Assembly: GCF_008370255.1 (NCBI RefSeq)
Contig: NZ_SEUI01000001.1
Coordinates: 27,205-91,204, forward strand
Source of the DNA: Pseudoalteromonas sp. FUC4
GTDB lineage: Bacteria; Pseudomonadota; Gammaproteobacteria; Enterobacterales; Alteromonadaceae
Direction of reading: 5' to 3'
DNA length: 64,000 nucleotides
This document shows positions 547 through 33,869 of the stretch, one piece after another (the first letter of the stretch is position 1; each line of letters starts with the position of its first letter). The translations under genes and the position numbers were made by a program. The notes beneath the pieces were generated by a model. That model was not told the DNA's origin and ran no database searches. It saw only the letters and a list, made by a program, of their open reading frames with translations.

Positions 547-568
547 TATTTACTGTTTGAGGTTAATT

Positions 569-883: not shown

Positions 884-891
884 AGTTTAAA

Positions 892-1706: not shown

Positions 1707-3143
1707 ATGATCTTGATTTTAGATAATAATAACAACCGCGCAATAGGATTAAATGCTTCACTTGGCTTTATTGGTGAAGCTGTACAACTATTAAGCGAAG
1801 ACTGCTTTGAACAAGAATGCAAAAAATATCAGCAGCAAGAATGCATGATTATTTTAGGAGCGTTGCAATCACTTGACCATGAAAGCTTAATTAAACGCTA
1901 TCCAACTCTACCGTTTTTATTAATTGGCGAAACGCTAAAACCACTATTAAGCATAGCTAATGTGGTGGGGCTTATTTGCGAGCCATTTAATCACGAAGTG
2001 ACAACGCAGTTACTTCACGATTGCCAGCAGTATCAGCGCATGTTGCCAAATGAGCATAAGCACAGTAAACCACACAAAACGTTTGATGGTCTTGTTGGTG
2101 AAACCGATGCGGTTAAAGGTGTTCGCTTTTTAATTGAACAAGTGGCAAAAACCGATGCCAATGTTTTAATTTTAGGTGAATCAGGCACAGGTAAAGAGGT
2201 TGTAGCGCGCAATGTGCATTTATTGTCTAAGCGTAATACCGGGCCATTTGTGCCTGTTAACTGTGGTGCTATTCCGGCAGAGCTGCTCGAAAGCGAACTA
2301 TTTGGCCACGAAAAAGGCGCATTTACGGGTGCTATATCGGCTCGTAAAGGGCGGTTTGAACTAGCTCAAGGTGGAACACTATTTTTAGATGAAATAGGCG
2401 ATATGCCACTACAAATGCAAGTTAAGTTGCTGCGAGTATTGCAAGAACGCAGCTACGAACGTGTTGGTGGTACAAAGGCTATCCAAGCTGATGTACGCGT
2501 TATTGCAGCCACGCATCGTAATCTTGAAACAATGATTGAAGAGGGTAGTTTTAGGGAAGATTTATATTACCGCTTAAATGTATTTCCTATCGAAAATCCA
2601 TCGCTGAGTGAGCGAGCTGATGACATTCCGCTGCTTTTAAAAGAGTTAATGCGCCGTGTTAACGACCAAACAGGTTCTACCGCTAAGTTTACCGAGCGCG
2701 CAGTTGAGAGTTTAAAAGAACATGCTTGGCCTGGTAATATTCGTGAGCTTGCTAATTTGGTGGAGCGTATGGTTATTATGTTCCCTGACAAAGTGGTTGA
2801 TATTCCTGATTTACCTAACAAATATCGTTACATTGAAGTTGAAGCCTACGAGCCAGAATACCCTGAAGAGTTAATGGAAAAAGACGCCTTTAACGACATA
2901 TTTAGCACAGGCTTTAGTGATTACGAAAGTGAGCCAGACGCTGAGTTTAGCCAAACGGGTAGTGGGCTATTGCCTGATGATGGTATTGAACTTAAAGACT
3001 ACTTAGCCGAACTTGAAATTAGCTTAATAACCCAAGCGTTAGAGCGCTATGATTACGTTGTAGCGCGCGCTGCAGAAATACTAGGTGTACGCAGAACAAC
3101 ACTCGTTGAGAAAATGAAAAAGTATAATCTTTCACGAGATTAA
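1707..3143 (+). CDS. flrA: Sigma-54-dependent flagellar master regulator FlrA (FleQ)
   Basis: FlrA/FleQ is the top activator of the polar flagellar cascade. It opens sigma-54 promoters using ATP and in relatives also responds to cyclic di-GMP. The 478 residues comprise an N-terminal FleQ-type receiver-like domain (about 1-115) without the usual acidic phosphorylation pocket, and an AAA+ domain (about 125-360). The AAA+ domain carries Walker A GESGTGKE at 157-164, the sigma-54 contact loop GAFTGA at 204-209 and Walker B LFLDEI at about 225-230. A Fis-type helix-turn-helix sits at the C-terminus ([15 protein letters not shown]). Unlike in most relatives, flrBC do not follow immediately: the reversed tag gene lies between. 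Confidence 0.95.
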
Positions 3144-4178: not shown

Positions 4179-5291
4179 ATGGCCCTGGCTAGCGTGCTAA
4201 AACCACAGTTTTTTTCTGCAAATCAGTATAACCCATGTTTACTTCAAGAGGAGTACATTGGTGAATTAAGCGATCTGCGCAAGCAAGCAAGTTGGCTTTC
4301 GCACTTGGTTGATACCATGCCTGCAGGTGTGGTTGTACTTGATGGCAAAGGGTTGGTTGCAAAAGCGAATCAAATAGCGATTGATATGCTTGGCGAGCCA
4401 CTTGAAGGCGAACGCTGGTTTAATGTTATTCAGCGCTCTTTTAGGCCACATCAAGATGATGGCCATGAAGTGTCTTTAAAAGACGGACGCCTAATAAAGC
4501 TTGATATTACTGCTTTAGCACCAGAGCCTGGGCAACTTATTTTAATGACGGACTTAACCGAAACCCGCCGCTTACAAAAACGTGTTGCACATATGCAGCG
4601 ATTAAGCGCGCTGGGTAAAATGGTTGCATCATTGGCGCATCAAGTTCGTACGCCTCTTTCTGCGGCTATGTTATACGCTGCTAATTTAGGCTCAAAACGC
4701 TTACCCGAAGCATCTCGTGATAATTTTCAAACAAAGTTAATGTCGCGCTTAAAAGACTTAGAAACCCAAGTTAACGACATGCTGTTATTTGCTAAAAGTG
4801 GCGATCAGCAAGTTGTTGAGCAAGTTTCAATGCAGCAGCTTTTAACAGAAGTTAAAGCGGGCGCTGATGCGATGGTCGCACTTAATGAAAGTGAGCTGGA
4901 TGTAAGCTTACCAGAGCCAGATATACAAATAGTCGGTAATAAAACGGCATTGGCCAGTGCTATTCAAAATCTTGTGCACAATAGTATTCAAGTTATTGGC
5001 AGCGGCGCAAAAGTAAAAATTAGCGCACAAAGGGATTTAAAAGATTTAGATATGGTTCGTATTAGTGTGAGCGACAATGGCCCAGGTGTTGATTTAAGCC
5101 AAAGCGATAAAATTTTTGAACCATTTTTTACTACAAAAAGTCAGGGCACAGGTTTAGGGCTTGCGGTAGTAAGTTCGGTGGCTAGTGCGCACCAAGGCTG
5201 TGTTGATGTGACTAATAATACGCAGGGTGGTGCCTGCTTTAGCTTGTTACTGCCTATTAAGGCAACAACTAAATTAGAGGGGTCATTATGA
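4179..5291 (+). CDS. flrB: Flagellar two-component sensor kinase FlrB (FleS)
   Basis: FlrB phosphorylates FlrC to turn on mid-class flagellar genes. I place the start at the ATG at 4179, 8 nt after a GAG; the TTG at 4173 would add two residues and has no better ribosome site. The 370 residues hold a short PAS-like region (about 38-130, TMPAGVVVLDGKGLVAKAN), a HisKA domain with phospho-acceptor His154 in SLAHQVRTPL, and a HATPase domain with N-box NLVHNSIQV, G1 DNGPG and G2 GTGLGL. There are no membrane segments, as in FleS/FlrB, so it acts in the cytosol. It overlaps flrC by 4 nt. Confidence 0.94.
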   Translation: MALASVLKPQFFSANQYNPCLLQEEYIGELSDLRKQASWLSHLVDTMPAGVVVLDGKGLVAKANQIAIDMLGEPLEGERWFNVIQRSFRPHQDDGHEVSLKDGRLIKLDITALAPEPGQLILMTDLTETRRLQKRVAHMQRLSALGKMVASLAHQVRTPLSAAMLYAANLGSKRLPEASRDNFQTKLMSRLKDLETQVNDMLLFAKSGDQQVVEQVSMQQLLTEVKAGADAMVALNESELDVSLPEPDIQIVGNKTALASAIQNLVHNSIQVIGSGAKVKISAQRDLKDLDMVRISVSDNGPGVDLSQSDKIFEPFFTTKSQGTGLGLAVVSSVASAHQGCVDVTNNTQGGACFSLLLPIKATTKLEGSL

Positions 5292-6754
5292 GTAACACTA
5301 TTTTAGTTGTCGAAGATGACGCAGGGCTTCGTGAAGCCTTAATAGATACTCTTGAAATGTCAGGTATTGAATGTGTTGCAGCGAGCAGTGCTGAGCAAGC
5401 AATGTTACTGCTTAAAAAAGATCAATTTTCGCTTGTTGTAAGCGACGTGCAAATGGGCGCAATGAGTGGACTTGATTTACTACGTAGTATTAAATTAAAC
5501 CACCCTGATTTACCTGTATTGATGATGACTGCGTATGCCACAATTGACGATGCGGTAGAGGCCATGCGCCTAGGTGCAATTGACTACATGGCAAAACCAT
5601 TTGCACCTGAAGTGCTGTTAAATATGGTGAGCCGTTATTTGCCTGAAAAAGCAAAAGAAACCGACGGCCCCGTTGTTGCTGACCCAACTAGTATTCAATT
5701 ATTGGAGCTTGCAAGTAAAGTAGCACGCTCTGATGCAAGTGTAATGGTACTTGGCCCAAGTGGTTCGGGTAAGGAAGTACTTGCGCGTTATATTCATGAT
5801 AAGTCGAGCCGATGTAATGAGCCATTTGTGGCGATTAACTGCGCGGCTATTCCTGAAAATATGCTCGAAGCCACGTTATTTGGTTACGAAAAAGGGGCCT
5901 TTACGGGCGCGATTCAAGCATGTCCGGGTAAGTTTGAGCAAGCACAAGGCGGCACTATTTTACTTGATGAAATTACTGAGATGGACTTAGGGCTACAAGC
6001 TAAACTGTTACGCGTACTGCAAGAGCGGGAAGTAGAGCGTTTAGGTGGCCGTAAAACAATTCAGCTCAATGTACGTATTTTGGCAACAAGTAATCGTGAT
6101 TTGAAAGAAGCGGTTGCTATAAACCAGTTTAGAGAAGATTTATATTACAGGCTTAATGTTTTTCCACTTATGTGGCGACCATTGAGCCAACGCCCTGGCG
6201 ATATTATTGTATTGGCTAAGCATTTAATTGAGCGCCATATAAGTAAAAGCAAAGAGCCCATGGCATATTTAGATAAAGCTGCTGAGCAAAAGTTATTGGC
6301 TCATGCGTGGCCTGGTAATGTACGCGAGCTTGATAACGTTATACAGCGTGCACTTATACTGCGAAGTGGCGATACAATAAACGAGCATGCTATTTTTATC
6401 GAAAATTTAGCGCCTAGTAACTTTGTTATGGAGCCATCATTGGCACCGGCGCAAACAGTATCGCCAACAGAATTAGCTCACGAAGCTCAAGACATTGAGA
6501 AAAGCGCGTTAAGCTCTGCTTACTACGATGAAAAATCATCAGCTGAGGTTGAATCTAAGCCAGGCTTACTAGCAGCAGATACTGGTAGCTATAAAGATGA
6601 GCTTAAAGACAAAGAGCATCGTATTATTTTAGAAACCCTTGCACGTTGCCAAGGTAAACGTAAAGACGTTGCCGAAACGTTGGGAATAAGCCCACGAACT
6701 TTACGTTATAAATTAGCGCAAATGCGCGACTTAGGTATTTCACTCCCTGCATAA
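5288..6754 (+). CDS. flrC: Flagellar sigma-54 response regulator FlrC (FleR)
   Basis: FlrC is the phosphorylated activator of basal-body, hook and switch operons. The 488 residues contain a receiver domain (1-115, acidic pair E9/D10 and D11, phospho-acceptor D53), an AAA+ domain with Walker A GPSGSGKE at 156-163 and the sigma-54 contact loop GAFTGA, then a variable acidic linker and a Fis-type helix-turn-helix (RKDVAETLGISPRTLRYKL) at the end. Its start overlaps the end of flrB, indicating coupled translation. The closest visible targets are the sigma-54 promoters before fliE and fliK. Confidence 0.95.
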   Translation: MSNTILVVEDDAGLREALIDTLEMSGIECVAASSAEQAMLLLKKDQFSLVVSDVQMGAMSGLDLLRSIKLNHPDLPVLMMTAYATIDDAVEAMRLGAIDYMAKPFAPEVLLNMVSRYLPEKAKETDGPVVADPTSIQLLELASKVARSDASVMVLGPSGSGKEVLARYIHDKSSRCNEPFVAINCAAIPENMLEATLFGYEKGAFTGAIQACPGKFEQAQGGTILLDEITEMDLGLQAKLLRVLQEREVERLGGRKTIQLNVRILATSNRDLKEAVAINQFREDLYYRLNVFPLMWRPLSQRPGDIIVLAKHLIERHISKSKEPMAYLDKAAEQKLLAHAWPGNVRELDNVIQRALILRSGDTINEHAIFIENLAPSNFVMEPSLAPAQTVSPTELAHEAQDIEKSALSSAYYDEKSSAEVESKPGLLAADTGSYKDELKDKEHRIILETLARCQGKRKDVAETLGISPRTLRYKLAQMRDLGISLPA

Positions 6755-6763
6755 CCTCCTATA

Positions 6764-6794
6764 AACCCTAAGTTTGCACCGCAAACTTAGGGTT
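6764..6794 (+). terminator. Strong hairpin after flrC
   Basis: Perfect 14-bp stem AACCCTAAGTTTGC with a 3-nt loop, immediately after the flrC stop. No T-run follows, so it may act as a 3'-end stabiliser or a factor-assisted terminator separating flrBC from the fliE operon. Confidence 0.65.
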
Positions 6795-6853
6795 GTCAAA
6801 ACTCTGACTCACAAAAAAACAAGTTAACTCTTTGTATTTAAATGATTAATTAC

Positions 6854-6870
6854 TTGGCACGCTTTGTGCT
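6854..6870 (+). promoter_or_regulatory. Sigma-54 promoter of the fliEFGHIJ operon
   Basis: TTGGCACGCTTTGTGCT matches the -24/-12 consensus almost completely, with the full TTGGCACG box and GG-N10-GC spacing. The predicted start near 6882 lies about 29 nt before the fliE ATG. Confidence 0.92.
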
Positions 6871-6910
6871 TTATTACTTATAAGAGTTCACTGCGTGTCA
6901 GAGATAAATT

Positions 6911-7243
6911 ATGAAAATTCAAAACAGTGCTGCATTTCAAGAAATGCAATCAATGGCTTTAGAAGCCGGCCGTAATAATCAAATTGAAAAGTTGCCGACT
7001 CAAATTCAGCCTACTTCTACTTCCCAGTTTGGCGACATGCTAAGTGATGCACTAAATACAGTGCATGGTTTACAGCAAGATGCGGGTCAAAAAGTAAAAG
7101 CGGTTGAAATGGGGGACCGAAGTGTATCGCTTGCTGAGGCGATGATTGCTTCTCAAAAATCGTCAGTTGCTTTTGAGGCTACAGTACAGGTTCGTAATAA
7201 ACTTGTTGAAGCTTATAAAGAAATCATGAACATGCCTGTTTAA
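6911..7243 (+). CDS. fliE: Flagellar hook-basal body protein FliE
   Basis: FliE joins the MS ring to the proximal rod and is exported early by the type III apparatus. The 110-residue protein has the normal size and C-terminal block (SVSLAEAMIASQKSSVAFEATVQVRNKLVEAYK split over its last 45 residues). First gene of the operon, placed just after the sigma-54 element; fliF follows 20 bp later. Confidence 0.95.
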   Translation: MKIQNSAAFQEMQSMALEAGRNNQIEKLPTQIQPTSTSQFGDMLSDALNTVHGLQQDAGQKVKAVEMGDRSVSLAEAMIASQKSSVAFEATVQVRNKLVEAYKEIMNMPV

Positions 7244-8979: not shown

Positions 8980-10012
8980 TCAAGAACAAAAACAACTCCC
9001 AGCAGCTTTTGATGTTGATAAGCTAGATGGGGTAGATAAAGCCGCTATATTACTTTTGAGTTTATCAGAAGAAGATGCCGCGCAAATCCTTAAACACTTA
9101 GAGCCTAAACAGGTGCAAAAAGTGGGTATGGCAATGGCTGGGCTACAGGATTTATCTCAAGCTAAAATTAGCGCTGTACACAACTTGTTTATAGAACAAA
9201 TTCAAAGCTTTAGTACCATTGGTTTTCAGTCGGAAGACTTTATTAAAAAAGCGCTTACAGCAGCACTTGGTGAAGACAAAGCCGCTAGTCTTATTGACCA
9301 AATTGTTATGGGCTCAGGTGCTAAAGGCTTGGATTCATTAAAATGGATGGACTCTAAGCAGGTCGCTAGTATTATTCGCAATGAGCATCCGCAAATTCAA
9401 ACCATTGTATTATCATATTTAGAACCAGAGCAGTCAGCAGAAATTATTTCTCAGTTTCCTGAAAAAGTACGCTTAGATTTAACCATGCGTATTGCAAACC
9501 TTGAAGAAGTTCAGCCAGCAGCACTGCAAGAGCTAAACGAAATAATGGAAAAACAATTTGCCGGCCAAGCAGGTGCGCAAGCTGCTAAAATGGGTGGGTT
9601 GAAGGCTGCCGCAGATATTTTGAATTACCTTGATACTAACGTTGAAGGGCAGTTAATGGACTCTATTCGTGAACATGATGAAGAGATGTCGCAGCAAATT
9701 CAAGACTTAATGTTTGTGTTTGAAAACTTAATGGATGTTGAAGACCGTGGTATTCAAGCAATCCTACGAGAAGTACAACAAGACGTACTAATGAAAGCAA
9801 TTAAGGGTGCTGATGATGCACTTAAAGATAAAATACTGGGTAATATGTCTAAGCGTGCAGCCGAAATGCTTGCTGATGACTTAGAAGCTATGGCACCGGT
9901 ACGTATAAGCGAAGTAGAAGCGGCGCAAAAAGAGATTTTATCAACAGCGCGTCGTTTGTCTGACTCGGGTGAAATTCAGCTGGGCGGCGGCGGTGGCGAG
10001 GAGTTCCTGTAA
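8972..10012 (+). CDS. fliG: Flagellar motor switch protein FliG
   Basis: FliG forms the upper C-ring, contacts FliF and carries the charged torque face that meets the stator. At 346 residues it has the usual three-part build: an N-terminal FliF-binding domain (KAAILLLSLSEEDAAQILKHL), a middle domain containing the EHPQ motif (about residues 137-140, NEHPQIQTIVLSYL) that binds FliM, and a C-terminal domain with the alternating charged helix DRGIQAILREVQQD. A glycine-rich tail (GGGGGE) precedes the end. It sits between fliF (8-nt overlap) and fliH (3-bp gap). Confidence 0.96.
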   Translation: MTDQEQKQLPAAFDVDKLDGVDKAAILLLSLSEEDAAQILKHLEPKQVQKVGMAMAGLQDLSQAKISAVHNLFIEQIQSFSTIGFQSEDFIKKALTAALGEDKAASLIDQIVMGSGAKGLDSLKWMDSKQVASIIRNEHPQIQTIVLSYLEPEQSAEIISQFPEKVRLDLTMRIANLEEVQPAALQELNEIMEKQFAGQAGAQAAKMGGLKAAADILNYLDTNVEGQLMDSIREHDEEMSQQIQDLMFVFENLMDVEDRGIQAILREVQQDVLMKAIKGADDALKDKILGNMSKRAAEMLADDLEAMAPVRISEVEAAQKEILSTARRLSDSGEIQLGGGGGEEFL

Positions 10013-10015
10013 ACT

Positions 10016-10822
10016 ATGAGCAAACTCAAAGGACGCACACTTCGGGCTGATGAAGCAGATGAATTATTAAAAAATTGGGCTATTCCAGATGTAGCACCAG
10101 ATGAAAGCAGCTTTGGTAATCGCTCTACAGCTTACGGCACACCGCTTAGTGAGTTGTACAAAAAAGAATTAGCCGAAGAAATGCCAGTTGATGAGCCACA
10201 AGAACCAGAACTCCCTGCGCTTACCATGGTTGAGCTTGAACGCATTAGACAAGACGCGTACGAAGAGGGCCTTAAACAAGGTCATGAGCAAGGCTACATA
10301 GATGGCTTTGAAAAAGGCGTTGGTGAAGGTAAAGAAGCTGGCTACAAAGAAGGGCTAGAGCAAGGTAAAAAACAAGGCCTTGAAGATGTAAAACCTTTAA
10401 TTGAAGAGCAGTTAACAAGTTTAAAAAACATTTTAGAGGGGCTAACTACGCCGCTAGATAAAGTAGACGAACAAGCCGAGAAGCAATTAGTACAACTTGC
10501 TAGCATGTTAGCGGAAGCTGTTATTTATCAAGAAGTAAAAACATCGCCTGATGTGATTTTACATACGTTAAAACAAAGTATTGATTCACTTAATGCGGAG
10601 CAAGAAAAAGTACGAATCCATTTAAACCCCGAAGACTTAGAACTCATAAAAGAGAGCTACGGCGAACAAACCATTATTGATAATAACTGGCAGTTAATGG
10701 CAGAGCCCACTCTTGAGCGCGGTGGTTGTGAAGTTAAAACAGCGCAATCGTCACTCGACATGACCCTTAAAACACGTGTCAAAGAAACGTTGGATAGTTT
10801 TTTGCATAATAGTGGTATCTAA
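10016..10822 (+). CDS. fliH: Flagellar export ATPase regulator FliH
   Basis: FliH dimers bind and restrain the FliI ATPase and tether it to the C-ring. The 268-residue product has a proline/glutamate-rich N-terminus. It then has an uninterrupted run of ten glycines at 4-residue spacing, from G85 to G121, preceded by A81 (AxxxG then GxxxG repeats), which is the characteristic helix-packing element of FliH. The C-terminal half is the conserved globular domain that contacts FliI. It starts 3 bp after fliG and is followed by fliI after 18 bp. Confidence 0.93.
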   Translation: MSKLKGRTLRADEADELLKNWAIPDVAPDESSFGNRSTAYGTPLSELYKKELAEEMPVDEPQEPELPALTMVELERIRQDAYEEGLKQGHEQGYIDGFEKGVGEGKEAGYKEGLEQGKKQGLEDVKPLIEEQLTSLKNILEGLTTPLDKVDEQAEKQLVQLASMLAEAVIYQEVKTSPDVILHTLKQSIDSLNAEQEKVRIHLNPEDLELIKESYGEQTIIDNNWQLMAEPTLERGGCEVKTAQSSLDMTLKTRVKETLDSFLHNSGI

Positions 10823-10840: not shown

Positions 10841-12175
10841 ATGTCAACTCAACGTGTACCTTTAAGCGAACGCTTATCTCAATATCAACAACATATTAAA
10901 ACCCCAGCGCCTGCTGTGGCCGGTATTTTAACGCGTGTTGTTGGCCTTACCCTTGAGGCTAGAGGTTTACGTGCACCCGTTGGTAGCCAATGTAAAATAG
11001 AAACCATGAACGGCTTTGTAGATGCCGAAATAGTCGGTTTTAACGATCAAACTTTGTACTTAATGCCTAACGACCACATTTCTGGTGTGCTTCCTGGTGC
11101 ACGTGTTATTCCCCAAGTTAATAACTTAGGTTTGCCTGTAGGGATGAGCTTATTAGGCCGCGTGGTGGATGGCTTAGGTCGACCGCTAGATGGCCTTGGT
11201 AAAATTAATGCTGAGCATCATTTAAAGTTTGCGCAAAACACTATAAACCCGCTTTCAAGAAGACCAATCACTAAGCCTATGGACGTAGGTGTACGTGCTA
11301 TTAACTCGGTAATTACAGTAGGGCAAGGCCAACGTATGGGTTTGTTTGCAGGTTCAGGTGTGGGTAAATCAGTACTTCTCGGTATGATGACCCGAGGTAG
11401 CGAAGCCGATGTAATTGTGGTTGGCTTAGTCGGTGAACGTGGCCGCGAAGTAAAAGAATTTATTGAAGAAATCCTCGGTGTAGAAGGACGCAAACGTTCA
11501 GTTGTTGTTGCAGCCCCAGCTGATTCATCACCGCTAATGCGTTTAAAAGGCTGTGAGAGCGCTGTAACTATTGCAGAGTATTTTAGAGATCAGGGTTTAA
11601 ACGTATTATTGTTACTCGATTCGGTAACACGTTACGCAATGGCGCAACGTGAAATAGCACTTGCTGTTGGTGAGCCGCCCGCTACAAAAGGTTATCCGCC
11701 TTCGGTGTTTGCTAAATTGCCTGCGCTGGTGGAGCGTGCTGGTAATGGCGGTGAAGGGCAAGGTTCAATTACTGCCTTTTTTACGGTGTTGAGTGAAGGC
11801 GATGATATGCAAGATCCGATTGCTGATGCAGCGCGAGCGATATTAGATGGCCACATTGTACTATCGCGTGATTTAGCAGACAGCGGGCACTATCCCGCTA
11901 TAGATATAGAAAAATCGATTTCGCGTGTTATGCCTCAAGTTGTTTCTGAGCCACACATGCAACAAGCCCGAGTGCTTAAGCAAGTGTATTCAATGTATCA
12001 ACAAAACAAAGACATGATTACTTTAGGTGCCTATCAAAAAGGGACCGATCAAATGCTCGACCAAGCTATAAACATGATGCCAAGAGTAAATGCATTTTTA
12101 CAACAAGGTATGCGAGATGTCATTAGTTACGATGATGGCCTGCAAGGTCTTGCTCTGTTACTAGGACAAGCATAA
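10841..12175 (+). CDS. fliI: Flagellum-specific ATPase FliI
   Basis: FliI is the F1-beta-like hexameric ATPase that unloads export substrates from chaperones at the flagellar type III gate. The 444 residues carry Walker A GSGVGKS, the Walker B region [16 protein letters not shown] and the family block [19 protein letters not shown]. The export-type N-terminal domain and a C-terminal helical chaperone-docking region flank the core. It follows fliH and its stop overlaps the fliJ start by 1 nt. Confidence 0.97.
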
Positions 12176-12621
12176 TGGCTAAAAACAAACTCGATTTATT
12201 ACTCAAAATTGAAAATGATAAAGAAGAAAACTTACGTATGAGTTACTTGCAAGCCAATCAAAACTTGCAAGCAAATCAACAAAAGTTACAAGGGTTAAAT
12301 GATTTTAGACTTGAATACTCTCAACAGTTACACCTAAAAGGTAAGTCGGGTTTATCTAGTGCAGGGTTTGGGCAGTACCATGCTTTTATAGCTAAAATTG
12401 AAGAGGCAATTCGCCAACAAGCAAGTACAGTAAATACCGCTAAACAAGTTGTTACTCAACGTAAAACGCTGTGGCTTAAGCAGCAAATTAAAGCTAAAGC
12501 AGTCGCCAAATTAATCGAAAATCAAAAACTCAAAGCAAATGCGTTAATGGCAAAAAATGAGCAAAAAATGTTAGATGAATTTTCAGCTAATCAGTTTTTT
12601 CAACGTCGTAAAGCTTTGTAA
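12175..12621 (+). CDS. fliJ: Flagellar export coiled-coil protein FliJ
   Basis: FliJ is the stalk-like coiled coil at the centre of the FliI hexamer and an escort for export chaperones. The 148-residue product is almost entirely two long, Q/K-rich amphipathic helices, as expected, with no other domain. Sequence conservation in FliJ is low; the call rests on length, helical pattern and its position directly after fliI. It is the last gene of the fliE operon, with the next sigma-54 element beginning immediately after its stop. Confidence 0.9.
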   Translation: MAKNKLDLLLKIENDKEENLRMSYLQANQNLQANQQKLQGLNDFRLEYSQQLHLKGKSGLSSAGFGQYHAFIAKIEEAIRQQASTVNTAKQVVTQRKTLWLKQQIKAKAVAKLIENQKLKANALMAKNEQKMLDEFSANQFFQRRKAL

Positions 12622-12623
12622 TT

Positions 12624-12640
12624 CAGGCACGTTAATTGCT
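12624..12640 (+). promoter_or_regulatory. Sigma-54 promoter of the fliK-flhB operon
   Basis: CAGGCACGTTAATTGCT carries GGCACG and TTGCT with GG-N10-GC spacing; only the T before GG differs from the consensus. It begins 3 bp after the fliJ stop. A start near 12652 leaves a leader of about 59 nt. Confidence 0.87.
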
Positions 12641-12666
12641 TTATTACTTAGTGGGATTTAACTTTT

Positions 12667-12690
12667 GGCGATATGCGGTGGCATATTGCC
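12667..12690 (+). other. Hairpin in the predicted fliK leader
   Basis: GGCGATATGC and GCATATTGCC pair over 10 bp (one G-U) around a 4-nt loop, wholly inside the transcript predicted from the upstream sigma-54 element and about 20 nt before the fliK start. Confidence 0.55.
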
Positions 12691-12710
12691 GTAATGGTAT
12701 TAGGTGATTT

Positions 12711-14672
12711 ATGGCGATGAATAACATTTCGTTTTTAGTTTCTTCTGAAAAAGATTCACTGTTAGCTTTTAAAGACAATAGCTTAGCTAATGGCGAAGGA
12801 AATTTAGGCGATGATTTTTTAAGCCAACTAAACGAAGCGCATAGTTCTATGGAGCCTTTGTTAAAAGGCAATAAAAATTCTAAAGCCGAAAATTCGATTG
12901 CCATTCCAAAGCATAAACAAAAAGAAGAAAATGATAATCTGAGTGCAAAGCGAGATGAAGACACAGCAGACGACGTTACTTTTGTATCTGTTGAGATGCT
13001 TAACCAGATTAATTCAGCACAAGCAATGAGCACTTCGATTAATAAGCCTTTTGAAGCAACTGAAAGTACAGAGTTAGATAATGCTGACTCTAAAACAGCG
13101 GACTTAAAGGGGCCAAAAATTGATAGCTCAAACTCACTACCTTTGAACTCGTTACCATTAAATGAAGGCAAGTATCATAAAAGTGGTGTTGCCGAAGCTA
13201 TTGAACAGCCATTAAATCCTATAAATAAAAAGCCTGATGACAGTATTGGCCCTATAGTTGATGATGCTGAATTAATTTCAATGGATATAAAAAATCAATT
13301 AGCTCAAGGCAAACCCGTTGATAAAAACTCAAAAAATATAGGGTTGCCAACACCAGTACCTACGCCAGTAACCCCATCTTCAGCGACCTCCCTATTAGCT
13401 GAAGCAGAAATGATACAAGCAAGTTCACAGACATCTGAAAGTGAAGAAATTGCTGCAATAGATACTTTAATGAATAAGGATACGAGCTTAATTAAAGCTA
13501 ATAACGTTATTACTAGTTTAACGCCTGAGCAGCGCTCGCAACTTAATGCGCAAATTAAGACATTAGACAATGCCGGCTCGACTAATAGTGCGACTACTGA
13601 TCGCACTGCCAACCTTAAACAAATGCTTGCGCAATTTATTACTGATAATGAAGAAGCACAGGGTAACGTAGTTAAACAGTCTTTTAGTTCTGAGATTGAT
13701 ACGCTTAATACCACTGAAAAGCAAAGCTTGTTAACACAATTAAACGCTTATATTAAAGCTGAGCAGCCTAAAGGCGAGCAGTTGTCAGTGCTTAAGCAAA
13801 CAGTTAATGAATTAAAAGCTTCAATTGAAATAGGTTTGGCTGATACAGCAAAATCAGACTCAAAAACGTTTGTAGCGCCTGACACTCAAAGTACTGTAAA
13901 TGACACGCAAAAAGTTAGCTCAAAAATATCGACAAGTGAAAACTTTGTACTAAGTAAGGTTGCTACAGCTTCTATAAAGGATGAAAGCGTAGCAAAGTCA
14001 TCTGAGCTGATGCAAAAAGATGGGCTGAAAAATATTACTGCAGAGCAAACAACGGCGCGCGTAGCACAAGTATTTACACAAATTACAGCCGCTTTAAATA
14101 CTCAGCAACCGAGTACATTAAGCCAATACGATTCATTGGGTTATGATCAAAGCTTACTTGATACCCAAATAATACAAACTCAACAATTACAAAGTACATC
14201 ACAAGTAAAGCAGGTAAGTATTGACCCAGGTGTTATGCAGGCAATTAATATTGTTAAAAGTGATGCAGCTAAATTACTACAGGATCGCGTTAGCTCAATG
14301 CTGAGCATTAATAATAAAGAAGCAGAAATTCGCCTTGATCCACCTGAAATGGGTAGCATGCAAATTCGTATTCGTAGCGATGCAGAACAGGCACACATAA
14401 ACTTTGTAGTACAAAGCCAACAAGCTAAAGAGGCACTTGAGCAATCAATGCCGCGTTTGCGTGAAATGTTAGCGCAACAGGGGCTAGAGCTTGGTGAAAG
14501 CACTATCTCTTATGGGCAATCAGGTAGTGAAACCTCTGATCAAAGTGAGGGTGGAACTCAAAGTAATTTGGCTAATAATAAGTCGGTTAATGATGAAAAT
14601 AACGAGCAAGCAAATAATACTGCACAAAGTTCTCGACAACAAACTTCATCATCAATAGATTACTATGCCTAA
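12711..14672 (+). CDS. fliK: Flagellar hook-length control protein FliK
   Basis: FliK is exported during hook growth, measures its length and switches FlhB from rod/hook to filament substrates. The 653-residue product has a long low-complexity S/T/N/Q-rich ruler region and a conserved C-terminal Flg_hook domain. That domain runs over about residues 520-620, with EIRLDPPEMGSMQIRI and PRLREMLAQQGLELGE. A disordered tail rich in N, S and Q ends it. The start ATG at 12711 has a modest AGGTG site. A second FliK-like gene occurs near 34.6 kb on the other strand. Confidence 0.93.
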   Translation: MAMNNISFLVSSEKDSLLAFKDNSLANGEGNLGDDFLSQLNEAHSSMEPLLKGNKNSKAENSIAIPKHKQKEENDNLSAKRDEDTADDVTFVSVEMLNQINSAQAMSTSINKPFEATESTELDNADSKTADLKGPKIDSSNSLPLNSLPLNEGKYHKSGVAEAIEQPLNPINKKPDDSIGPIVDDAELISMDIKNQLAQGKPVDKNSKNIGLPTPVPTPVTPSSATSLLAEAEMIQASSQTSESEEIAAIDTLMNKDTSLIKANNVITSLTPEQRSQLNAQIKTLDNAGSTNSATTDRTANLKQMLAQFITDNEEAQGNVVKQSFSSEIDTLNTTEKQSLLTQLNAYIKAEQPKGEQLSVLKQTVNELKASIEIGLADTAKSDSKTFVAPDTQSTVNDTQKVSSKISTSENFVLSKVATASIKDESVAKSSELMQKDGLKNITAEQTTARVAQVFTQITAALNTQQPSTLSQYDSLGYDQSLLDTQIIQTQQLQSTSQVKQVSIDPGVMQAINIVKSDAAKLLQDRVSSMLSINNKEAEIRLDPPEMGSMQIRIRSDAEQAHINFVVQSQQAKEALEQSMPRLREMLAQQGLELGESTISYGQSGSETSDQSEGGTQSNLANNKSVNDENNEQANNTAQSSRQQTSSSIDYYA

Positions 14673-15269: not shown

Positions 15270-16361
15270 GTGAGCGATTTATTATCCCAAGACGAAATTG
15301 ATGCGCTATTACATGGCGTTGATGACGTTGAAGAGGAAGATATACACGAAGGTGAAGATGGCGGGGGAAGTACGCTCCAGTACGATTTTTCTTCGCAAGA
15401 TCGGATCGTGCGTGGTCGTATGCCGACGCTGGAAATTGTTAACGAACGCTTTGCTCGCCATATGCGAATTAGCCTATTTAACATGATGCGTCGCACCGCC
15501 GAGGTGTCTATTAACGGCGTACAAATGATTAAATTTGGCGAGTATATTCATACTCTATTTGTTCCTACCAGTTTGAATATGGTGCGTTTTAGACCTTTAA
15601 AAGGCACTGGCCTGATTACCATGGAAGCACGACTTGTGTTTATTTTGGTAGATAACTTTTTTGGTGGTGACGGGCGTTACCATGCAAAAATAGAAGGCCG
15701 AGAATTTACTCCTACAGAACGTCGAATTGTACAAATGCTCCTTAAAATAATCTTTGAAGATTACAAAGAAGCATGGGCACCGGTTATGGATGTATCATTT
15801 GAATATCTCGATTCTGAAGTAAACCCAGCAATGGCAAACATTGTAAGCCCAACCGAGGTTGTGGTTATTAGCTCTTTTCATATCGAGCTTGATGGTGGCG
15901 GTGGGGATTTTCATATCGCTTTACCTTACTCAATGCTTGAGCCGATTCGAGAACTGTTAGATGCGGGTGTTCAATCTGATACTGAAGATACTGATTTGCG
16001 TTGGAGCAAAGCACTTCGTGATGAAATAATGGATGTAGAGGTTGAAATATCAACTCAGTTACTTGAAGTTGATTTAAGCTTAAAGCAAATTATGGAACTC
16101 AAAACTGGTGATATCATCCCGGTTGAAATGCCTGAGCATATAACCGTATTTGTTGAAGAACTACCTACATTTAGAGCTAAAATGGGTCGCTCTCGCGATA
16201 ATGTTGCGCTGCAAATTAGTGAAAAAATTAAACGACCTGATTCAGTTAAATCTGAGCTGCATGTATTTACCAAAGGCGGCAAGAAAATTGACTCAGATGC
16301 AGAATTAGCAGAACTAGAAGATGATTTGCACCTCTCTGACGGTGTAGACTTAGACTGGTAA
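15270..16361 (+). CDS. fliM: Flagellar motor switch protein FliM
   Basis: FliM forms the C-ring wall and binds phospho-CheY to change rotation direction. It starts with GTG after GGGGC. The 363 residues begin with the CheY-binding peptide LLSQDEIDALLHG, followed by the CheC-like middle domain (RIVRGRMPTLEIVNERFARH, and GGDGR in the ring contact) and a C-terminal SpoA domain that pairs with FliN. FliN follows after 20 bp. Confidence 0.96.
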   Translation: MSDLLSQDEIDALLHGVDDVEEEDIHEGEDGGGSTLQYDFSSQDRIVRGRMPTLEIVNERFARHMRISLFNMMRRTAEVSINGVQMIKFGEYIHTLFVPTSLNMVRFRPLKGTGLITMEARLVFILVDNFFGGDGRYHAKIEGREFTPTERRIVQMLLKIIFEDYKEAWAPVMDVSFEYLDSEVNPAMANIVSPTEVVVISSFHIELDGGGGDFHIALPYSMLEPIRELLDAGVQSDTEDTDLRWSKALRDEIMDVEVEISTQLLEVDLSLKQIMELKTGDIIPVEMPEHITVFVEELPTFRAKMGRSRDNVALQISEKIKRPDSVKSELHVFTKGGKKIDSDAELAELEDDLHLSDGVDLDW

Positions 16362-25454: not shown

Positions 25455-25838
25455 TTGGATAAAAACATGAAAATTCTTGTAGTTGATGATTTTTCAACGA
25501 TGAGACGCATTATAAAAAACCTGTTACGTGATTTAGGTTTCACTAACGTTCAAGAAGCTGATGACGGCTCTACGGCTTTGCCTATGCTACAAAATCAAGT
25601 GTTTGATTTTGTAGTTACGGATTGGAATATGCCTGGAATGCAAGGTATTGACCTTTTAAGGGCAATTCGTGCAGATGATAAGTTAAAACATATCCCTGTA
25701 TTAATGGTAACGGCAGAAGCTAAAAAAGAACAAATAATAGCTGCAGCGCAAGCTGGTGTTAATGGTTATATTGTTAAGCCTTTTACGGCTGGAACATTAA
25801 AAACTAAGTTAGAAAAAGTATTTGAACGCTTAGGCTAA
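25455..25838 (+). CDS. cheY: Chemotaxis response regulator CheY
   Basis: CheY carries phosphate from CheA to the FliM switch. The 127-residue receiver has the acid pocket D11/D12, phospho-acceptor D56 in VVTDWNMPG, the conserved T near 86 in VLMVTAEA and the lysine in GYIVKPF. I use the TTG at 25455, which follows GGGGGA closely; the ATG at 25467 would drop four residues and lies far from that site. It heads the chemotaxis block. Confidence 0.95.
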
Positions 25839-25855: not shown

Positions 25856-26629
25856 ATGCCAGCACCAGCTGCACCTCAAATAACGTTAGAACAAGCTCGT
25901 CAGCTCGTTGTTTTTTTAGAAAATGATGAGCAAGATAAAGCAAATCAGTTGATTTTAGAGACTGCCTCGCAAGAGCAGTCTGAATTATTTGCTGAAGTTG
26001 GAAAGTTGACCCGTCAATTGCACGAAGCCCTTAAAAGTTTTGATCTTGATACTCGTTTAACTGATTTAACAACCGATGCTATTCCAGATGCTAAAAAGCG
26101 GCTTAATTATGTTATAGAAATGACAGAAAGCGCGGCTAATAAAACAATGGATGCAGTGGAAGCGAGTCTTCCTATAGCCCAGCAATTAGCAGATGAAATA
26201 TCTCATATCAAACCGACATGGGATCGTTTAATGAGCCGCGAAATTGAGTTGGGTGAGTTTAAACAACTTTGTCACAGTATCGATAAATTTATGAATAACT
26301 CTCATCATAAAACAGATGAGCTTCAAAGCTTAATGACAAATGTACTAATGGCTCAAGACTATCAAGACTTAACAGGCCAAGTTATTCGCCGTGTTATAGA
26401 ACTTGTTAGGGAAGTAGAAGAAAGCCTACTTCATCTTTTAACAGCGTTTGCTGAACAAGATGATAGTGACAGCACAGTGAATAAAGTAGAACAACAAAAA
26501 ATAAAAGAACCAGTTGCCACACAAACTTTAGCAGGTCCTGAAGGCCCTATTATTGATAAAGAATCGCGTAACGATGTTGTATCTGATCAAGATGAAGTCG
26601 ATGATCTTTTATCAAGTTTGGGCTTCTAA
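25856..26629 (+). CDS. cheZ: CheY-P phosphatase CheZ
   Basis: CheZ dephosphorylates CheY to end the signal. I choose the ATG at 25856, preceded by GGGGGAGAGG at the right distance, over the ATG at 25838 that overlaps the cheY stop. The 257-residue product is a long helical hairpin with the active-site segment QDYQDLTGQVIRRV and the C-terminal CheY-docking peptide DEVDDLLSSLGF, both family hallmarks. It lies between cheY and cheA. Confidence 0.94.
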   Translation: MPAPAAPQITLEQARQLVVFLENDEQDKANQLILETASQEQSELFAEVGKLTRQLHEALKSFDLDTRLTDLTTDAIPDAKKRLNYVIEMTESAANKTMDAVEASLPIAQQLADEISHIKPTWDRLMSREIELGEFKQLCHSIDKFMNNSHHKTDELQSLMTNVLMAQDYQDLTGQVIRRVIELVREVEESLLHLLTAFAEQDDSDSTVNKVEQQKIKEPVATQTLAGPEGPIIDKESRNDVVSDQDEVDDLLSSLGF

Positions 26630-26644
26630 GAGGAGAGTAACTGC

Positions 26645-28825
26645 ATGTTTGAAGTCGATGAAGATATTTTACAAGACTTTCTCGTAGAGGCAGGAGAAAT
26701 CCTAGAGCTTTTATCTGAACAGTTGGTTGAACTGGAAAATAATCCAGAAGATACAGAGTTACTAAACGCTATATTTAGAGGCTTTCACACTGTAAAAGGT
26801 GGTGCAGGCTTTTTAGCTATGACAGAACTTGTTGATGCTTGTCATGGTGCTGAAAACGTATTTGATTTATTACGTCAAGGCGTGAGGACGGTCAATTCAG
26901 AATTAATGGATGTTATTTTACAAGCGCTCGACACCATTAATGAAATGTTCGCTACTATCCAGAATAGGGATAAACCAGAACCTGCAGATCCTGAATTACT
27001 TCATACCCTTCATATTTTAGGTCTACCTCCAACAGAAGATGGGCGTAACGGTGTATCTTCGAACAATGAAGTTGAACAACCTCAAAACGAAGTAGTTGAT
27101 ACGGCCATAGTTGATGACGAAGATCCGTTTGCATTTGATGGACTATTTAGCGGAACGCCTTTGGTTAGCGATGCTGAAATTGATGAAATAACTGAAGACG
27201 AATTTGAAAACTTACTGGATGAACTACACGGTAAAGGACAAGGTCCTGTAATTGAGAAGCCAGTAGCAAGCAGCAATGATTTTAATGGTGACATTACTGA
27301 TGATGAATTTGATAACTTATTAGATGAGTTACATGGAGTCGGCAGTTTTGGTGATGTTGCTAGCAAAGTACCTGTAGAACCAGCAAAATCAGTCTCAAAC
27401 ACGGTTAATTCATCAGATGATGAAATTAGTGATGACGAGTTTGAAGCACTCCTTGATGAACTTCATGGTAAAGGTACTGCACCTAAATCAATAGAAAGCA
27501 CGCCAGCTGTGAATCAGCCCAGTATTCCTGAAACACCAGTTGTTAAAGCTAGTGAGCCTGTAAAAAAACCAGAGCCTGCCAAAGCACCTGTTTCTAAACC
27601 GGTAGAAAAGCCTGTTGTGAAAGCAGCGCCCGCAGCGGCAAAAAAATCAGCGCCGCCTGCAGCAGAAACTACCGTTCGTGTAGATACAAAACGACTTGAC
27701 CAGATTATGAATATGGTCGGTGAGTTAGTCCTTGTGCGAAACCGCTTAGTGAGTCTTGCGACTAACTCTGATAGCGAGGCGATGGGTAAAGCTATCTCTA
27801 ATCTTGATGTAGTAACTGCTGATATTCAAGGTGCAGTTATGCAAACACGAATGCAGCCAATTAAAAAGGTATTTGGTCGTTTCCCTCGCGTGGTACGTGA
27901 TTTAGCGCGCAGCTTAAATAAAGATATTAATTTACAACTTGTTGGTGAAGAAACCGATTTAGATAAAAATTTGGTGGAAGCACTTGCCGATCCGCTTGTG
28001 CATTTAGTTCGAAATTCAGTTGACCATGGTATTGAAATGCCTGCTGTTCGTGAGGCAGCAGGTAAGTCTAGAACAGGTAATGTTACTCTATCAGCGTCTC
28101 AAGAAGGCGATCATATCTTGCTAACCATTAAAGATGATGGCGCTGGTATGGATGCTGAAAAGCTGAAAAAAATAGCAATTAGTAAAGGCGTGCTCGATCA
28201 TGACCAAGCGAGTCGACTTTCTGACACCGAAGCGTATAACTTGATTTTTGCACCCGGCTTTTCTACAAAAGAAGAGATATCTGATATTTCAGGTCGTGGT
28301 GTAGGTATGGACGTGGTGAAAACTAAAATCACCCAATTGAACGGTTCAGTAAGTATTCAATCTGAGTTAGGCGTAGGTACTATTTTAGAAATAAAAGTAC
28401 CACTTACCTTGGCTATATTACCGACCTTAATGGTGATTGTTGGCTCACAAACATTTGCGTTACCACTTGCCGGTGTGAGTGAAATATTCAACTTAGATTT
28501 AACTAAGACAAATGTCGTTGATGGGCAATTAACAATTATTGTGCGTAAAAAGGCAATACCGTTATTTTACCTTGAGCACTGGTTAGTAAAGGGCTCAGAT
28601 CGCTCTCAGCGAAAAGCAAATGGCCACGTAGTTATTGTCCAAATTGGTACCAAGCAAATAGGTTTTGTTGTTGACTCATTAATTGGTCAAGAAGAAGTTG
28701 TAATTAAACCACTTGATGCATTACTTCAAGGCACGCCAGGTATGGCGGGTGCTACGATAACTTCAGATGGTGGCATTGCACTGATTTTAGACGTTCCAAA
28801 CATGTTAAAACATTACGCAGGCTGA
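26645..28825 (+). CDS. cheA: Chemotaxis histidine kinase CheA
   Basis: CheA autophosphorylates in response to receptors and passes phosphate to CheY and CheB. The 726 residues contain P1 HPt (1-110, phospho-acceptor H48 in FRGFHTVKGGAGF), a long acidic linker (about 130-345), the P3 dimerisation helices (DQIMNMVGELVLVRN), a P4 kinase domain with HLVRNSVDHGIE and GRGVGMDVV, and a P5 CheW-like domain. I see no typical P2 CheY-binding domain. Instead the linker has three near-identical motifs (182-196, 217-231, 261-275) of the form I-[TS]-[ED]-D-E-F-x-x-L-L-D-E-L-H-G. In Vibrio a region in this part of CheA (the LID) binds ParP/ParC. Confidence 0.95.
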   Translation: MFEVDEDILQDFLVEAGEILELLSEQLVELENNPEDTELLNAIFRGFHTVKGGAGFLAMTELVDACHGAENVFDLLRQGVRTVNSELMDVILQALDTINEMFATIQNRDKPEPADPELLHTLHILGLPPTEDGRNGVSSNNEVEQPQNEVVDTAIVDDEDPFAFDGLFSGTPLVSDAEIDEITEDEFENLLDELHGKGQGPVIEKPVASSNDFNGDITDDEFDNLLDELHGVGSFGDVASKVPVEPAKSVSNTVNSSDDEISDDEFEALLDELHGKGTAPKSIESTPAVNQPSIPETPVVKASEPVKKPEPAKAPVSKPVEKPVVKAAPAAAKKSAPPAAETTVRVDTKRLDQIMNMVGELVLVRNRLVSLATNSDSEAMGKAISNLDVVTADIQGAVMQTRMQPIKKVFGRFPRVVRDLARSLNKDINLQLVGEETDLDKNLVEALADPLVHLVRNSVDHGIEMPAVREAAGKSRTGNVTLSASQEGDHILLTIKDDGAGMDAEKLKKIAISKGVLDHDQASRLSDTEAYNLIFAPGFSTKEEISDISGRGVGMDVVKTKITQLNGSVSIQSELGVGTILEIKVPLTLAILPTLMVIVGSQTFALPLAGVSEIFNLDLTKTNVVDGQLTIIVRKKAIPLFYLEHWLVKGSDRSQRKANGHVVIVQIGTKQIGFVVDSLIGQEEVVIKPLDALLQGTPGMAGATITSDGGIALILDVPNMLKHYAG
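27188..27469 (+). repeat. Three acidic DEFxxLLDELHG motifs in the CheA linker
   Basis: Residues 182-196, 217-231 and 261-275 of CheA are three copies of one 15-residue motif, differing at only a few positions and separated by 20 and 29 variable residues. The DNA copies have diverged more than the protein, indicating selection on the peptide. Confidence 0.85.
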
Positions 28826-31778: not shown

Positions 31779-32549
31779 GTGAAGATTTGGACTGTCGCTA
31801 ATCAAAAGGGGGGAGTTGGTAAAACAACAACTGCAGTGAGCCTTGCTGGTATTTTGGCCTTGCAAGGTAAGCGTGTGTTGCTTATAGATACAGATCCTCA
31901 TGCATCACTCACTTATTACTTTGGCATTGACTCAGAAGATTTAGAAGTCAGTGTGTACGATATTTTTGCACGTGGAACAAGCATGCAAAGTGAAGAGATA
32001 CTTCAAGCTTTATGCCCATCAACACTTGATAATCTAGATATTTTACCTGCAACTATGGCAATAGCTACGCTTGACAGAAGTATGGGTAATAAAACAGGCA
32101 TGGGGTTAATACTAAAAAAAGCGCTTGCAAAAATAAGCGAACATTATGATTATGCCATTTTAGATTGCCCTCCGGTTTTAGGCGTGCTGATGGTGAATGC
32201 GCTTGCAGCAAGCGAGCGGATTTTAGTGCCAGTGCAAACGGAGTTTTTAGCACTCAAAGGGCTTGATAGAATGATGCGTACTATGGATTTGATGCAATCC
32301 TCTCAAGCAAAAGATTACCAATATACTATAATTCCTACCATGTACGACAAACGTACCAAAGCATCGCTAGAGGCATACAAAACATTGCAAAGTACATATG
32401 GTGATAAAGTTTGGCCAGGTGTGATACCGGTGGATACCAAATTTAGAGATGCAAGCTTTGCACAAAAAGTACCTGTAGAGTATTGTCCTCGCTCACGCGG
32501 TGTATACGCATATAAAGCACTGCTAGAATATTTAATTGAACAAGGTTAA
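31779..32549 (+). CDS. parC: ParA-like ATPase ParC, chemotaxis array positioning
   Basis: In Vibrio, ParC is a ParA-family ATPase that recruits chemotaxis arrays to the cell pole and passes them to daughter cells. The 256 residues begin with MKIWTVANQKGGVGKTTTA (deviant Walker A), then LLIDTDPHASLTYYFG and YAILDCPPVLG, all ParA hallmarks. It starts with GTG after AGGA. The assignment to ParC rather than another ParA relies on its position before parP and cheW, the same order as in Vibrio cholerae. Confidence 0.88.
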   Translation: MKIWTVANQKGGVGKTTTAVSLAGILALQGKRVLLIDTDPHASLTYYFGIDSEDLEVSVYDIFARGTSMQSEEILQALCPSTLDNLDILPATMAIATLDRSMGNKTGMGLILKKALAKISEHYDYAILDCPPVLGVLMVNALAASERILVPVQTEFLALKGLDRMMRTMDLMQSSQAKDYQYTIIPTMYDKRTKASLEAYKTLQSTYGDKVWPGVIPVDTKFRDASFAQKVPVEYCPRSRGVYAYKALLEYLIEQG

Positions 32550-32552
32550 TGA

Positions 32553-33347
32553 ATGAGTAAGCAATTGTTTGCTAATGAAAAAGTAATGAAACAATACCTC
32601 GGGGCTTTGTTATGTGAAGATGAGCCTGTAGATAACCTTGAGCCAGTTGCAAAATTACTTGAGCAAATCCCAGATGATTCACAACACAAGCATATTCATT
32701 CAAAACCTAAAGAACAATTAAAAGCAGCAGAGAGCACATTTGATAATGGCTTACTTAATGTTGAAATTGAGCCAATAGCTGAGCCAGCGTTTGAAACCGA
32801 AAAAGTTAATGAAGTGGTTGACGAGAAAGTAATAGCACCTGCAATTACTACTATAGAAAAGCCAGAGCTGGAGATTGTAACTACTAGCCAATCAGACTAT
32901 TTTGATGGTGAATTTCAGGCACTATTTTTTGAAGTTGCTGGCTTGACCTTGGCTGTGCCATTAAAAGCACTCGGTGGAATACATCAATTAGGTGAAGTAA
33001 ATCATTTGTTTGGTAAGCCGAAATGGTTTAAAGGCGTTATGCTCAACAGAGAAGAGAAGCTTAATGTTGTTGATACGGCGCGTTGGGTAATGCCAGAAAA
33101 GTATGATGATAAATTAGAGGCATCTCTAGATTATCAATATTTAATTATCTTAGGCGATAGCCAGTGGGGTTTATTGGCTGAAAAGTTGATAAATAACATT
33201 ACATTGAGTAAAGAAGATGTAAAATGGCGTACAAATAAAAGTAAGCGCCCATGGCTTGCTGGCGTTATAAAAGAAAAAATGTGTGCTTTGATAGACGTAG
33301 ATAATTTAAATATATTATTAGAGAAAGGCTTAGATAGCCGTCAGTAG
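32553..33347 (+). CDS. parP: CheW-like array partner ParP
   Basis: ParP links ParC to the array by binding CheA and receptors. The 264 residues have a long acidic, proline-containing N-terminal half (about 1-125) and a C-terminal CheW-like domain (about 126-260) with FQALFFEVAGLTLAVPLKAL, the counterpart of the CheW first subdomain. It is longer than CheW and divergent from it, which separates it from the true cheW that follows after 24 bp. Confidence 0.87.
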   Translation: MSKQLFANEKVMKQYLGALLCEDEPVDNLEPVAKLLEQIPDDSQHKHIHSKPKEQLKAAESTFDNGLLNVEIEPIAEPAFETEKVNEVVDEKVIAPAITTIEKPELEIVTTSQSDYFDGEFQALFFEVAGLTLAVPLKALGGIHQLGEVNHLFGKPKWFKGVMLNREEKLNVVDTARWVMPEKYDDKLEASLDYQYLIILGDSQWGLLAEKLINNITLSKEDVKWRTNKSKRPWLAGVIKEKMCALIDVDNLNILLEKGLDSRQ

Positions 33348-33371: not shown

Positions 33372-33869
33372 ATGAATCAAGATAAATTACTGTCAGCAAA
33401 TAAAAACGCGGATAATAATGATGAAATTTTACAGTGGGTTACGTTTAAGTTAGAAGAAGAAACTTACGGCGTAAATGTAATGCAAGTTCAAGAAATACTG
33501 CGCTACACTGAAATAGCCCCTGTACCAGGTGCACCTTCTTATGTGATTGGTATTATTAACTTACGCGGCAACGTTGTTACAGTTATTGATACACGTGCAC
33601 GTTTTGGTTTGTTAGCTGCTGATGCAACTGACAATTCTCGTATATTAATTATCGAAGCTGAAGAGCAAGTTATTGGTATTTTAGCTGATAGCGTATCTGA
33701 AGTGGTTTATTTACGCAGCTCTGAAATCGACAGTGCACCAAATGTAGGTACTGAAGAAAGTGCTAAGTTTATTCAAGGTGTTTGTAACCGCGATAACGAA
33801 TTACTGATTTTGGTTGATTTAAATAAGTTACTCAGTGATGACGAATGGGATGAGTTAAGCGATATATAA
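33372..33869 (+). CDS. cheW: Chemotaxis adaptor CheW
   Basis: CheW bridges receptors and CheA in the array. The 165 residues contain the full CheW domain: QWVTFKLEEETYGVNVMQVQ, the motif VPGAPSYVIGIINLRGNVVTVID, and the late VSEVVYLRSSEI and GVCNRDNELLILVDL blocks. It follows parP and precedes a small DUF2802-type gene, as in Vibrio and Shewanella. Confidence 0.96.
   Translation: MNQDKLLSANKNADNNDEILQWVTFKLEEETYGVNVMQVQEILRYTEIAPVPGAPSYVIGIINLRGNVVTVIDTRARFGLLAADATDNSRILIIEAEEQVIGILADSVSEVVYLRSSEIDSAPNVGTEESAKFIQGVCNRDNELLILVDLNKLLSDDEWDELSDI

Follow-up and report, generated by a model that had tools for sequence, protein, structure and literature searches.

We describe here a repeated motif in the chemotaxis kinase CheA of Pseudoalteromonas sp. 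FUC4, encoded in a stretch of 64,000 nucleotides that was analysed as a whole and is called the window below (assembly GCF_008370255.1, contig NZ_SEUI01000001.1, positions 27,205 to 91,204 of the forward strand). The motif, DEFxxLLDELHG, occurs three times in the linker between the P1 and P3 domains, where a P2 domain would be expected. Sequence and phyletic evidence suggests that these repeats are probably multivalent CheY-docking motifs of the FliM and CheZ type, standing in P2's stead. The same motifs possibly overlap the localization and inheritance domain (LID), the published ParP-binding element of CheA in Vibrio.

Repeats in the linker of a CheA without P2

The original prediction had placed three copies of the motif between P1 and P3, and exactly three exact matches were found there (window coordinates):

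26645 to 28825, + strand: cheA, 726 amino acids (ORF, Pfam)
27197 to 27232, + strand: repeat 1, DEFENLLDELHG (CheA residues 185-196), in the context EITEDEFENLLDELHGKG, exact match to DEFxxLLDELHG
27302 to 27337, + strand: repeat 2, DEFDNLLDELHG (residues 220-231), in the context DITDDEFDNLLDELHGVG, exact match
27434 to 27469, + strand: repeat 3, DEFEALLDELHG (residues 264-275), in the context EISDDEFEALLDELHGKG, exact match

The Pfam layout of this CheA comprises P1 (Hpt) at residues 7-98, P3 at 342-401, P4 at 449-588 and P5 at 595-723, with a linker at about 110-340. Hpt, H-kinase_dim, HATPase_c and CheW were the only Pfam matches, and no P2 or CheY-binding domain appeared at E 1, in agreement with the prediction that the repeats lie where P2 would be. 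When the linker was shuffled 1000 times, no shuffle produced a set of three 12-mers agreeing at 8 or more of the 12 positions, and five produced a set of two. In addition, the codons differ at 5-7 of the 10-11 residues identical between any two copies; the copies are therefore old and have been kept by selection at the protein level. Two other domain readings were set aside. The SHOCT match (PF09851) reaches 21 bits in the window, below the cut-off of 27, and was judged a compositional likeness; the same judgement was made of the EF-hand matches, and of the CheA of locus L071, which stands above the SHOCT cut-off, its copies scoring 32.7 bits.

Among 281 gammaproteobacterial genomes, a protein search gave 121 CheA match rows at E<=1e-100, in 120 genomes. 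We took 106 of them: 100 CheAs close to the query, for which the class name F6 is used here, and six distant ones (L121-L126) that were kept outside the 100. Left out were the window itself, eleven frames that were short or interrupted, the CheAs of genomes G137 and G221, and the second of the matches in G047. By a relaxed pattern, all 100 F6 CheAs carry copies of the repeat (one copy in 6, two in 42, three in 40, four in 10 and five in 2). A strict pattern found at least one linker copy in 92/100, or in 91/100 with other linker borders, and the remaining 8 have variant copies. Among 80 named loci, which include Shewanella, Aeromonas, Photobacterium, Aliivibrio and Vibrio and may partly overlap the 100 (L247 and L021 look alike), two copies were seen in 8, three in 69 and four in 3. 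The nearest named CheAs are those of Pseudoalteromonas, with a best identity of 80%.

The conservation of the repeats matches that of the catalytic domains. Over the 80 named CheAs and that of the window (n=81), the majority identity averages 0.87 for the repeats, 0.84 for P1 and 0.86 for P3-P5, and 0.33 for the linker outside the repeats (residues 125-338). Residues that follow each copy are also conserved, namely G198 (0.74) and P201 (0.62) after repeat 1, G233 (1.00) and F235 (0.83) after repeat 2, and G277 (0.99) and P280 (0.96) after repeat 3. Besides these flanking residues and single prolines, the sole other conserved linker stretch in the 81 CheAs lies just past P1, at residues 114-126 (nt 26984-27022), and is of the type A-x-x-x-L-L-x-x-L-x-x-L-S. 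It may mark where P1 ends or be a functional element of its own, perhaps the LID.

In the 100 F6 linkers, too, P2 was looked for, and two in-house P2 profiles gave no match in any of them (best E 0.83). These profiles were seeded with 13 segments chosen by eye among 40 CheAs of other classes, taken from the matches of a phylum-wide search; they match 21 of the 40, of which 13 are their own seeds, and three further CheAs look P2-like by eye (L309, L323, L327). The F6 repeat was found in none of the 40. A broad version of the pattern gave four matches in three of them, all inside segments read as P2.

Other linker features were noticed in these comparisons. A PGEVSLDDLERAF-like motif is common to seven of the 40 non-F6 CheAs, none of which has a P2 match (L300, L310, L313, L317, L324, L330, L334); it is possibly another docking motif. 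In a second CheA class an FGFF/YGFF motif occurs: L306 (1971-4142), for which P2 gave no match, carries it five times, and single copies stand behind P2 in L331 (P2 by profile) and in L309, L323 and L327 (P2 by eye). Furthermore, a second CheA of the Pseudoalteromonas genome (contig 16, L332) has one stretch that was read as a P2 domain.

Likeness to the CheY-docking peptides of FliM and CheZ

The window is a cluster of flagellar and chemotaxis genes in which cheY, cheZ and cheA adjoin, with parC, parP and cheW further on. It holds the proposed ligand and two known docking peptides:

25455 to 25838, + strand: cheY, the proposed ligand (ORF, structure-chain comparison)
26591 to 26626, + strand: C-terminal peptide of CheZ, DEVDDLLSSLGF (CheZ residues 252-263), of a known CheY-docking class
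15282 to 15317, + strand: N-terminal peptide of FliM, LSQDEIDALLHG (FliM residues 5-16), of a known CheY-docking class

The end of CheZ is as the original prediction gave it. The FliM motif DEIDALLHG, said there to begin the protein, is present at residues 8-16 and is preceded by MSDLLSQ. The solved chains nearest to the window CheY are 3to5 and 4hns, which we take to be Vibrio cholerae CheY3, and the C-terminal part is identical to the solved chain 2fka at 37/47 residues (hand count on the alignment). With the cheY DNA as query, E. coli genomes gave no match at the sensitivity of that search. According to PMC3774744, activated V. cholerae CheY3 binds FliM, and one CheY face is common to FliM and CheZ.

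What the three CheA copies have in common with these peptides is a core, D-E-hydrophobic-D/E-x-L-L. The FliM N-terminus (LSQDEIDALL), acidic and helix-forming in a flexible segment, aligns without gaps to the CheA stretch ITDDEFEALL, which is likewise acidic and is predicted, in models of low confidence, to form a helix in a flexible segment; unlike the repeats, the FliM peptide is present in one copy, has Ile or Val where CheA has Phe, and lacks the LDxLHG tail. The CheZ peptide keeps the register D-E-hydrophobic-D/E-x-L-L-x-x-L across 10 residues, but it is a single copy at the extreme C-terminus. With P2, the repeats share the position between P1 and P3 and the proposed job; P2, however, is folded, whereas here short motifs stand in predicted disorder and the P2 profiles find no match.

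FliM N-termini are almost invariant (LSQDEIDALL in 29/30 genomes; G118 gave no motif). A profile of 10 columns made from the 29 was run on 9513 ORFs of at least 60 amino acids, spurious ones included, from the 106 loci, with CheZ as the known positive. Its top 50 matches comprise 23 CheZ, 22 CheA, 2 FliM and 3 others, and its top 100 comprise 54 CheZ, 38 CheA, 2 FliM and 6 others. In this ranking the median of the 100 F6 CheAs is 119.5 of 9513, and the best match is a repeat in 96 of them. Within the window (121 ORFs) FliM ranks first, CheZ second and CheA third. Compared with random 230-residue stretches, 85/100 F6 linkers exceed the 99th percentile and 33 the 99.9th; 86/100 beat their own shuffles at p<=0.01 and 99/100 their own reversal. 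When the consensus letters were permuted, 41/100000 permutations scored as high as the consensus itself. Repeat 3 of the window scores 17.2, a value reached by 0.05% of random 230-residue stretches. As a further positive, though a partial one, the best linker match of the profile also exceeds the 99th percentile (11.5) in 4 of the 21 P2-positive CheAs (L315, 12.9; L318, 14.5; L328, 12.9; L329, 12.7), always in a DDIxAV/NDIEAV segment that is presumably the P2 helix touching CheY.

Two further proteins of this genome came up with the same profile. The window CheW (33372-33869) ends in LSDDEWDELSDI, the sixth-best match of the 121 ORFs. FimV/HubP (TIGR03505; L014, C1:120332 region, ORF 421-3018) has FliM-like acidic motifs, with LDQDELESLL at 18.5, LSNDDLDSLF at 14.3 and eight copies of LDDIDxLI.

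Several results weigh against a CheY-docking role. In the forward direction, repeats 1 and 2 score 11.0 and 13.6, values reached by 1.6% and 0.3% of random 230-residue stretches, and 17/21 P2-positive CheAs stay below the 99th percentile. A CheZ-C profile places CheA lower than the FliM profile does, at a median of 242.5 of 9513. In the reverse direction, the expected recovery of the FliM and CheZ tails by a profile of the CheA repeats failed. In the window, an ORF read as FlhA scored 11.7 and the CheZ tail 6.6, no higher than chance-level helices; the best FliM match lay away from the N-terminus, which the profile missed. Over the whole ORF collection, the best non-CheA matches were mostly N-terminal CheZ stretches and FlhA-like helices. 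The likeness is therefore asymmetric. Two traits, an almost invariant Phe and the LHG tail, are also peculiar to the CheA repeats, so the likeness should be understood as a common core and not as one of the whole repeat. Furthermore, FliM and CheZ peptides prefer phosphorylated CheY, and a dock on the donor side needs the unphosphorylated form. Finally, 16/40 non-F6 CheAs have neither a P2 match nor the F6 repeat, so the repeats are not a universal P2 substitute.

The structure models belong to the same balance. AlphaFold was run on read-through chains CheY-(CheZ)-CheA of natural loci, looking for a gain of confidence in a docked repeat. CheY, CheZ and CheA were in one frame in L192 and 10 other loci; in L193 and nine further loci only CheY and CheA shared a frame, CheZ lying in another, and eight in all of these were used. 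In these low-confidence models each repeat forms one separate helix of 11-12 residues between disordered flanks: at 581-592, 617-628 and 666-677 in L192 (pLDDT near 75, 59-66 and 62-67, with flanks at about 29-42) and at 587-598, 624-635 and 671-681 in L193. Both models are poor (pTM 0.24 and 0.27; mean pLDDT 40.9 and 57.6), and as no contacts can be read from them they are silent on docking; the CheZ tail, the positive control, had no gain in confidence either (48-53). Two alignments that mixed read-through with single-gene rows (A4, A5) were not used, as their CheA rows had apparently been placed on CheY.

ParP, ParC and other candidate partners

The original prediction had offered ParP and ParC as partners beside CheY, and both are encoded in the window:

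31779 to 32549, + strand: parC, a ParA-like ATPase (ORF, Pfam, profile)
32553 to 33347, + strand: parP, an N-terminal segment followed by a CheW-like domain (ORF, Pfam, profile)

In PMC5706961 and PMC7534058, ParP of Vibrio is reported to bind the LID, a CheA element between P2 and P3 found only together with ParC/ParP. It could then be argued that the repeats are simply the LID, that is, docking peptides for the ParP AIF that tether the polar array via ParC and have no CheY role. The repeats (residues 185-275) do lie in the same protein and the same linker, before P3 (start at 342), as the LID does, and form the chief conserved element from the end of P1 to P3; the two may overlap. The conserved stretch at residues 114-126 could itself represent the LID, or belong to the end of P1.

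The distribution of ParC and ParP bears directly on this question. Genome-wide searches covered 43 genomes and used one profile for ParP (31 rows) and one for ParC (24 rows); the other F6 CheAs were judged by their local region. True ParC proteins scored 327-410 bits and other ParA-type matches 140-218. In eight genomes (G154, G234, G007, G018, G137, G020, G021, G124), the genome-wide search found no ParC and no ParP above the level of CheW (best 29-51 bits). G124 is 95% complete in 240 contigs, and a gene missing from a draft assembly is not thereby proven absent. G144 has ParP without ParC, and G245 only a partial ParC match. CheAs were in hand from seven of the eight genomes, that of G137 having been left out, and all seven keep 1-3 copies of the repeat (L071, L113, L099, L115, L119, L108, L056). 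In the local regions cheW comes directly after cheA in L071, L113 and L056, and after 1.2 kb in L099; L115 and L119 have no parC/parP in the region, and L108 was assigned by the genome search alone. On a tree of the CheA core the label of lacking ParC/ParP needs six changes, at least two of them on supported branches.

Docking of ParP/ParC therefore cannot be the sole role of the repeats, and either the statement that the element occurs only with ParC/ParP fails for them or the LID is something else. Of the two halves of the original prediction, the ParP/ParC half has been weakened and may describe a second role, and the CheY half is favoured by the sequence and phyletic evidence. Repeats in genomes lacking every partner named there were not encountered, as FliM was found in 30/30 genomes and cheY, at 170 bits or more, in 95/100 F6 regions (a count of the regions, the genomes of the other five not having been searched).

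A point in favour of ParP, and against a role in CheY docking only, is the number of copies. Its mean is 2.82 where ParP is encoded locally (n=68), 2.50 where it is found elsewhere in the genome (>=95 bits, n=12), 1.85 with ParC only (n=13) and 2.00 with neither (n=7). The original prediction had proposed to correlate the repeat count with parP/parC, and a comparison of 68 with 20 CheAs does give more copies with ParP (p 9e-6 without correction for the tree). However, only three independent supported pairs exist on the tree, which cannot reach significance, and for this reason the link is not claimed. It should be noted that some ParC-only loci (L041, L044, L095, L096, L107, L111, L112, L114, L116, L117, L118, L120 and L061, in which no ParP was recognised by profile) have a CheW-like ORF beside ParC, e.g. 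L118 at 9693-10583. These ORFs may be divergent ParPs, so the class was not used as evidence of ParP loss. With the seven CheAs and the tree changes on one side and position, conservation and copy number on the other, we consider a pure LID role quite improbable.

A combined role is also conceivable, in which every F6 CheA would dock CheY through the core and, where ParP exists, would share the same or additional copies with it, in competition or by division. The presence of repeats in 100/100 together with the higher counts beside ParP would fit this idea, as would the positional conservation of the residues after each copy, as if the copies were not interchangeable. Two CheAs of one lineage without ParC/ParP are also in line with it, since they keep the DEFExLL core and have lost the DxLHG tail: L071 (CheA 4995-7100) carries three longer repeats such as LPEGVDPDGEITDDEFEALLNQRD, and L113 (CheA 11986-14172) two such as LPEGWDPDEDITDEEFEQLLQMRE. 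On the other hand, an LHG, LYG or VHG tail is kept in at least one copy of L099, L115, L108, L056 and L119 (the copies of L119 being degenerate), all without ParC/ParP, and the copy-number link was not confirmed on the tree. We regard this combination as unlikely, though less so than the LID role alone.

Finally, the repeats could serve in the control of the kinase, or their partner could be CheA itself or another array or polar protein (CheW, CheV, CheB or the landmark FimV/HubP). The acidic motifs of FimV/HubP in the same genome and the C-terminal end of CheW lend this some appeal. None of these partners alone, however, explains the likeness to both FliM-N and CheZ-C, whose common ligand is CheY, and we hold the idea to be very improbable. 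According to the review PMC7534058, a factor joining HubP and ParC is still to be identified.

Proposed mechanism and meaning

For CheY docking by the repeats, which we consider the probable explanation, the following mechanism can be proposed. Short helical docking motifs, strung along a disordered linker, would take the place of the folded P2. On binding, each repeat would form a helix of about 12 residues gripping the alpha4-beta5-alpha5 face of CheY, and CheY would be kept near the phosphorylated P1, giving faster phosphotransfer, like P2 in E. coli. With several copies, a CheA would gain avidity or be able to hold several CheY molecules at once. In E. coli, PMC5705603 puts the affinity for CheY at about 0.5 uM for P2 and about 900 uM for isolated P1, and describes how, through tethering, one CheY can be held jointly by P1 and P2; the repeats would supply a tether of this P1/P2 type in the P2-less F6 CheAs. 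As a speculation, Phe in place of Ile/Val may shift the preference toward unphosphorylated CheY.

The kind of motif is known from FliM-N and CheZ-C, and what is new, as far as the searched literature shows, is its repeated form inside a P2-less kinase. Among the matches listed, no title or abstract opening describes these repeats, and the LID papers (PNAS 2014, J Bacteriol 2018) could hold such a description. About half of all CheAs are without P2, and a published survey (PMC10782961) describes P2 as dispensable and the linker of such CheAs as unstructured. A broader view would be that F6 systems exchanged a folded CheY-binding domain for a row of FliM-like peptides. The kinase, the motor, the phosphatase and perhaps FimV/HubP would then show CheY variants of a single peptide code, and docking of the regulator via short linear motifs, own to each class, may be general among P2-less CheAs. 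This generalization is doubtful, and is put forward tentatively.

If the CheY-docking explanation is true, docking was not lost from the F6 linkers (Vibrio, Shewanella and Pseudoalteromonas among them) but changed its form. A testable quantitative prediction on phosphotransfer rates would also follow for this large and much-studied group, and one element may serve both the polar-localization LID and the recruitment of CheY.

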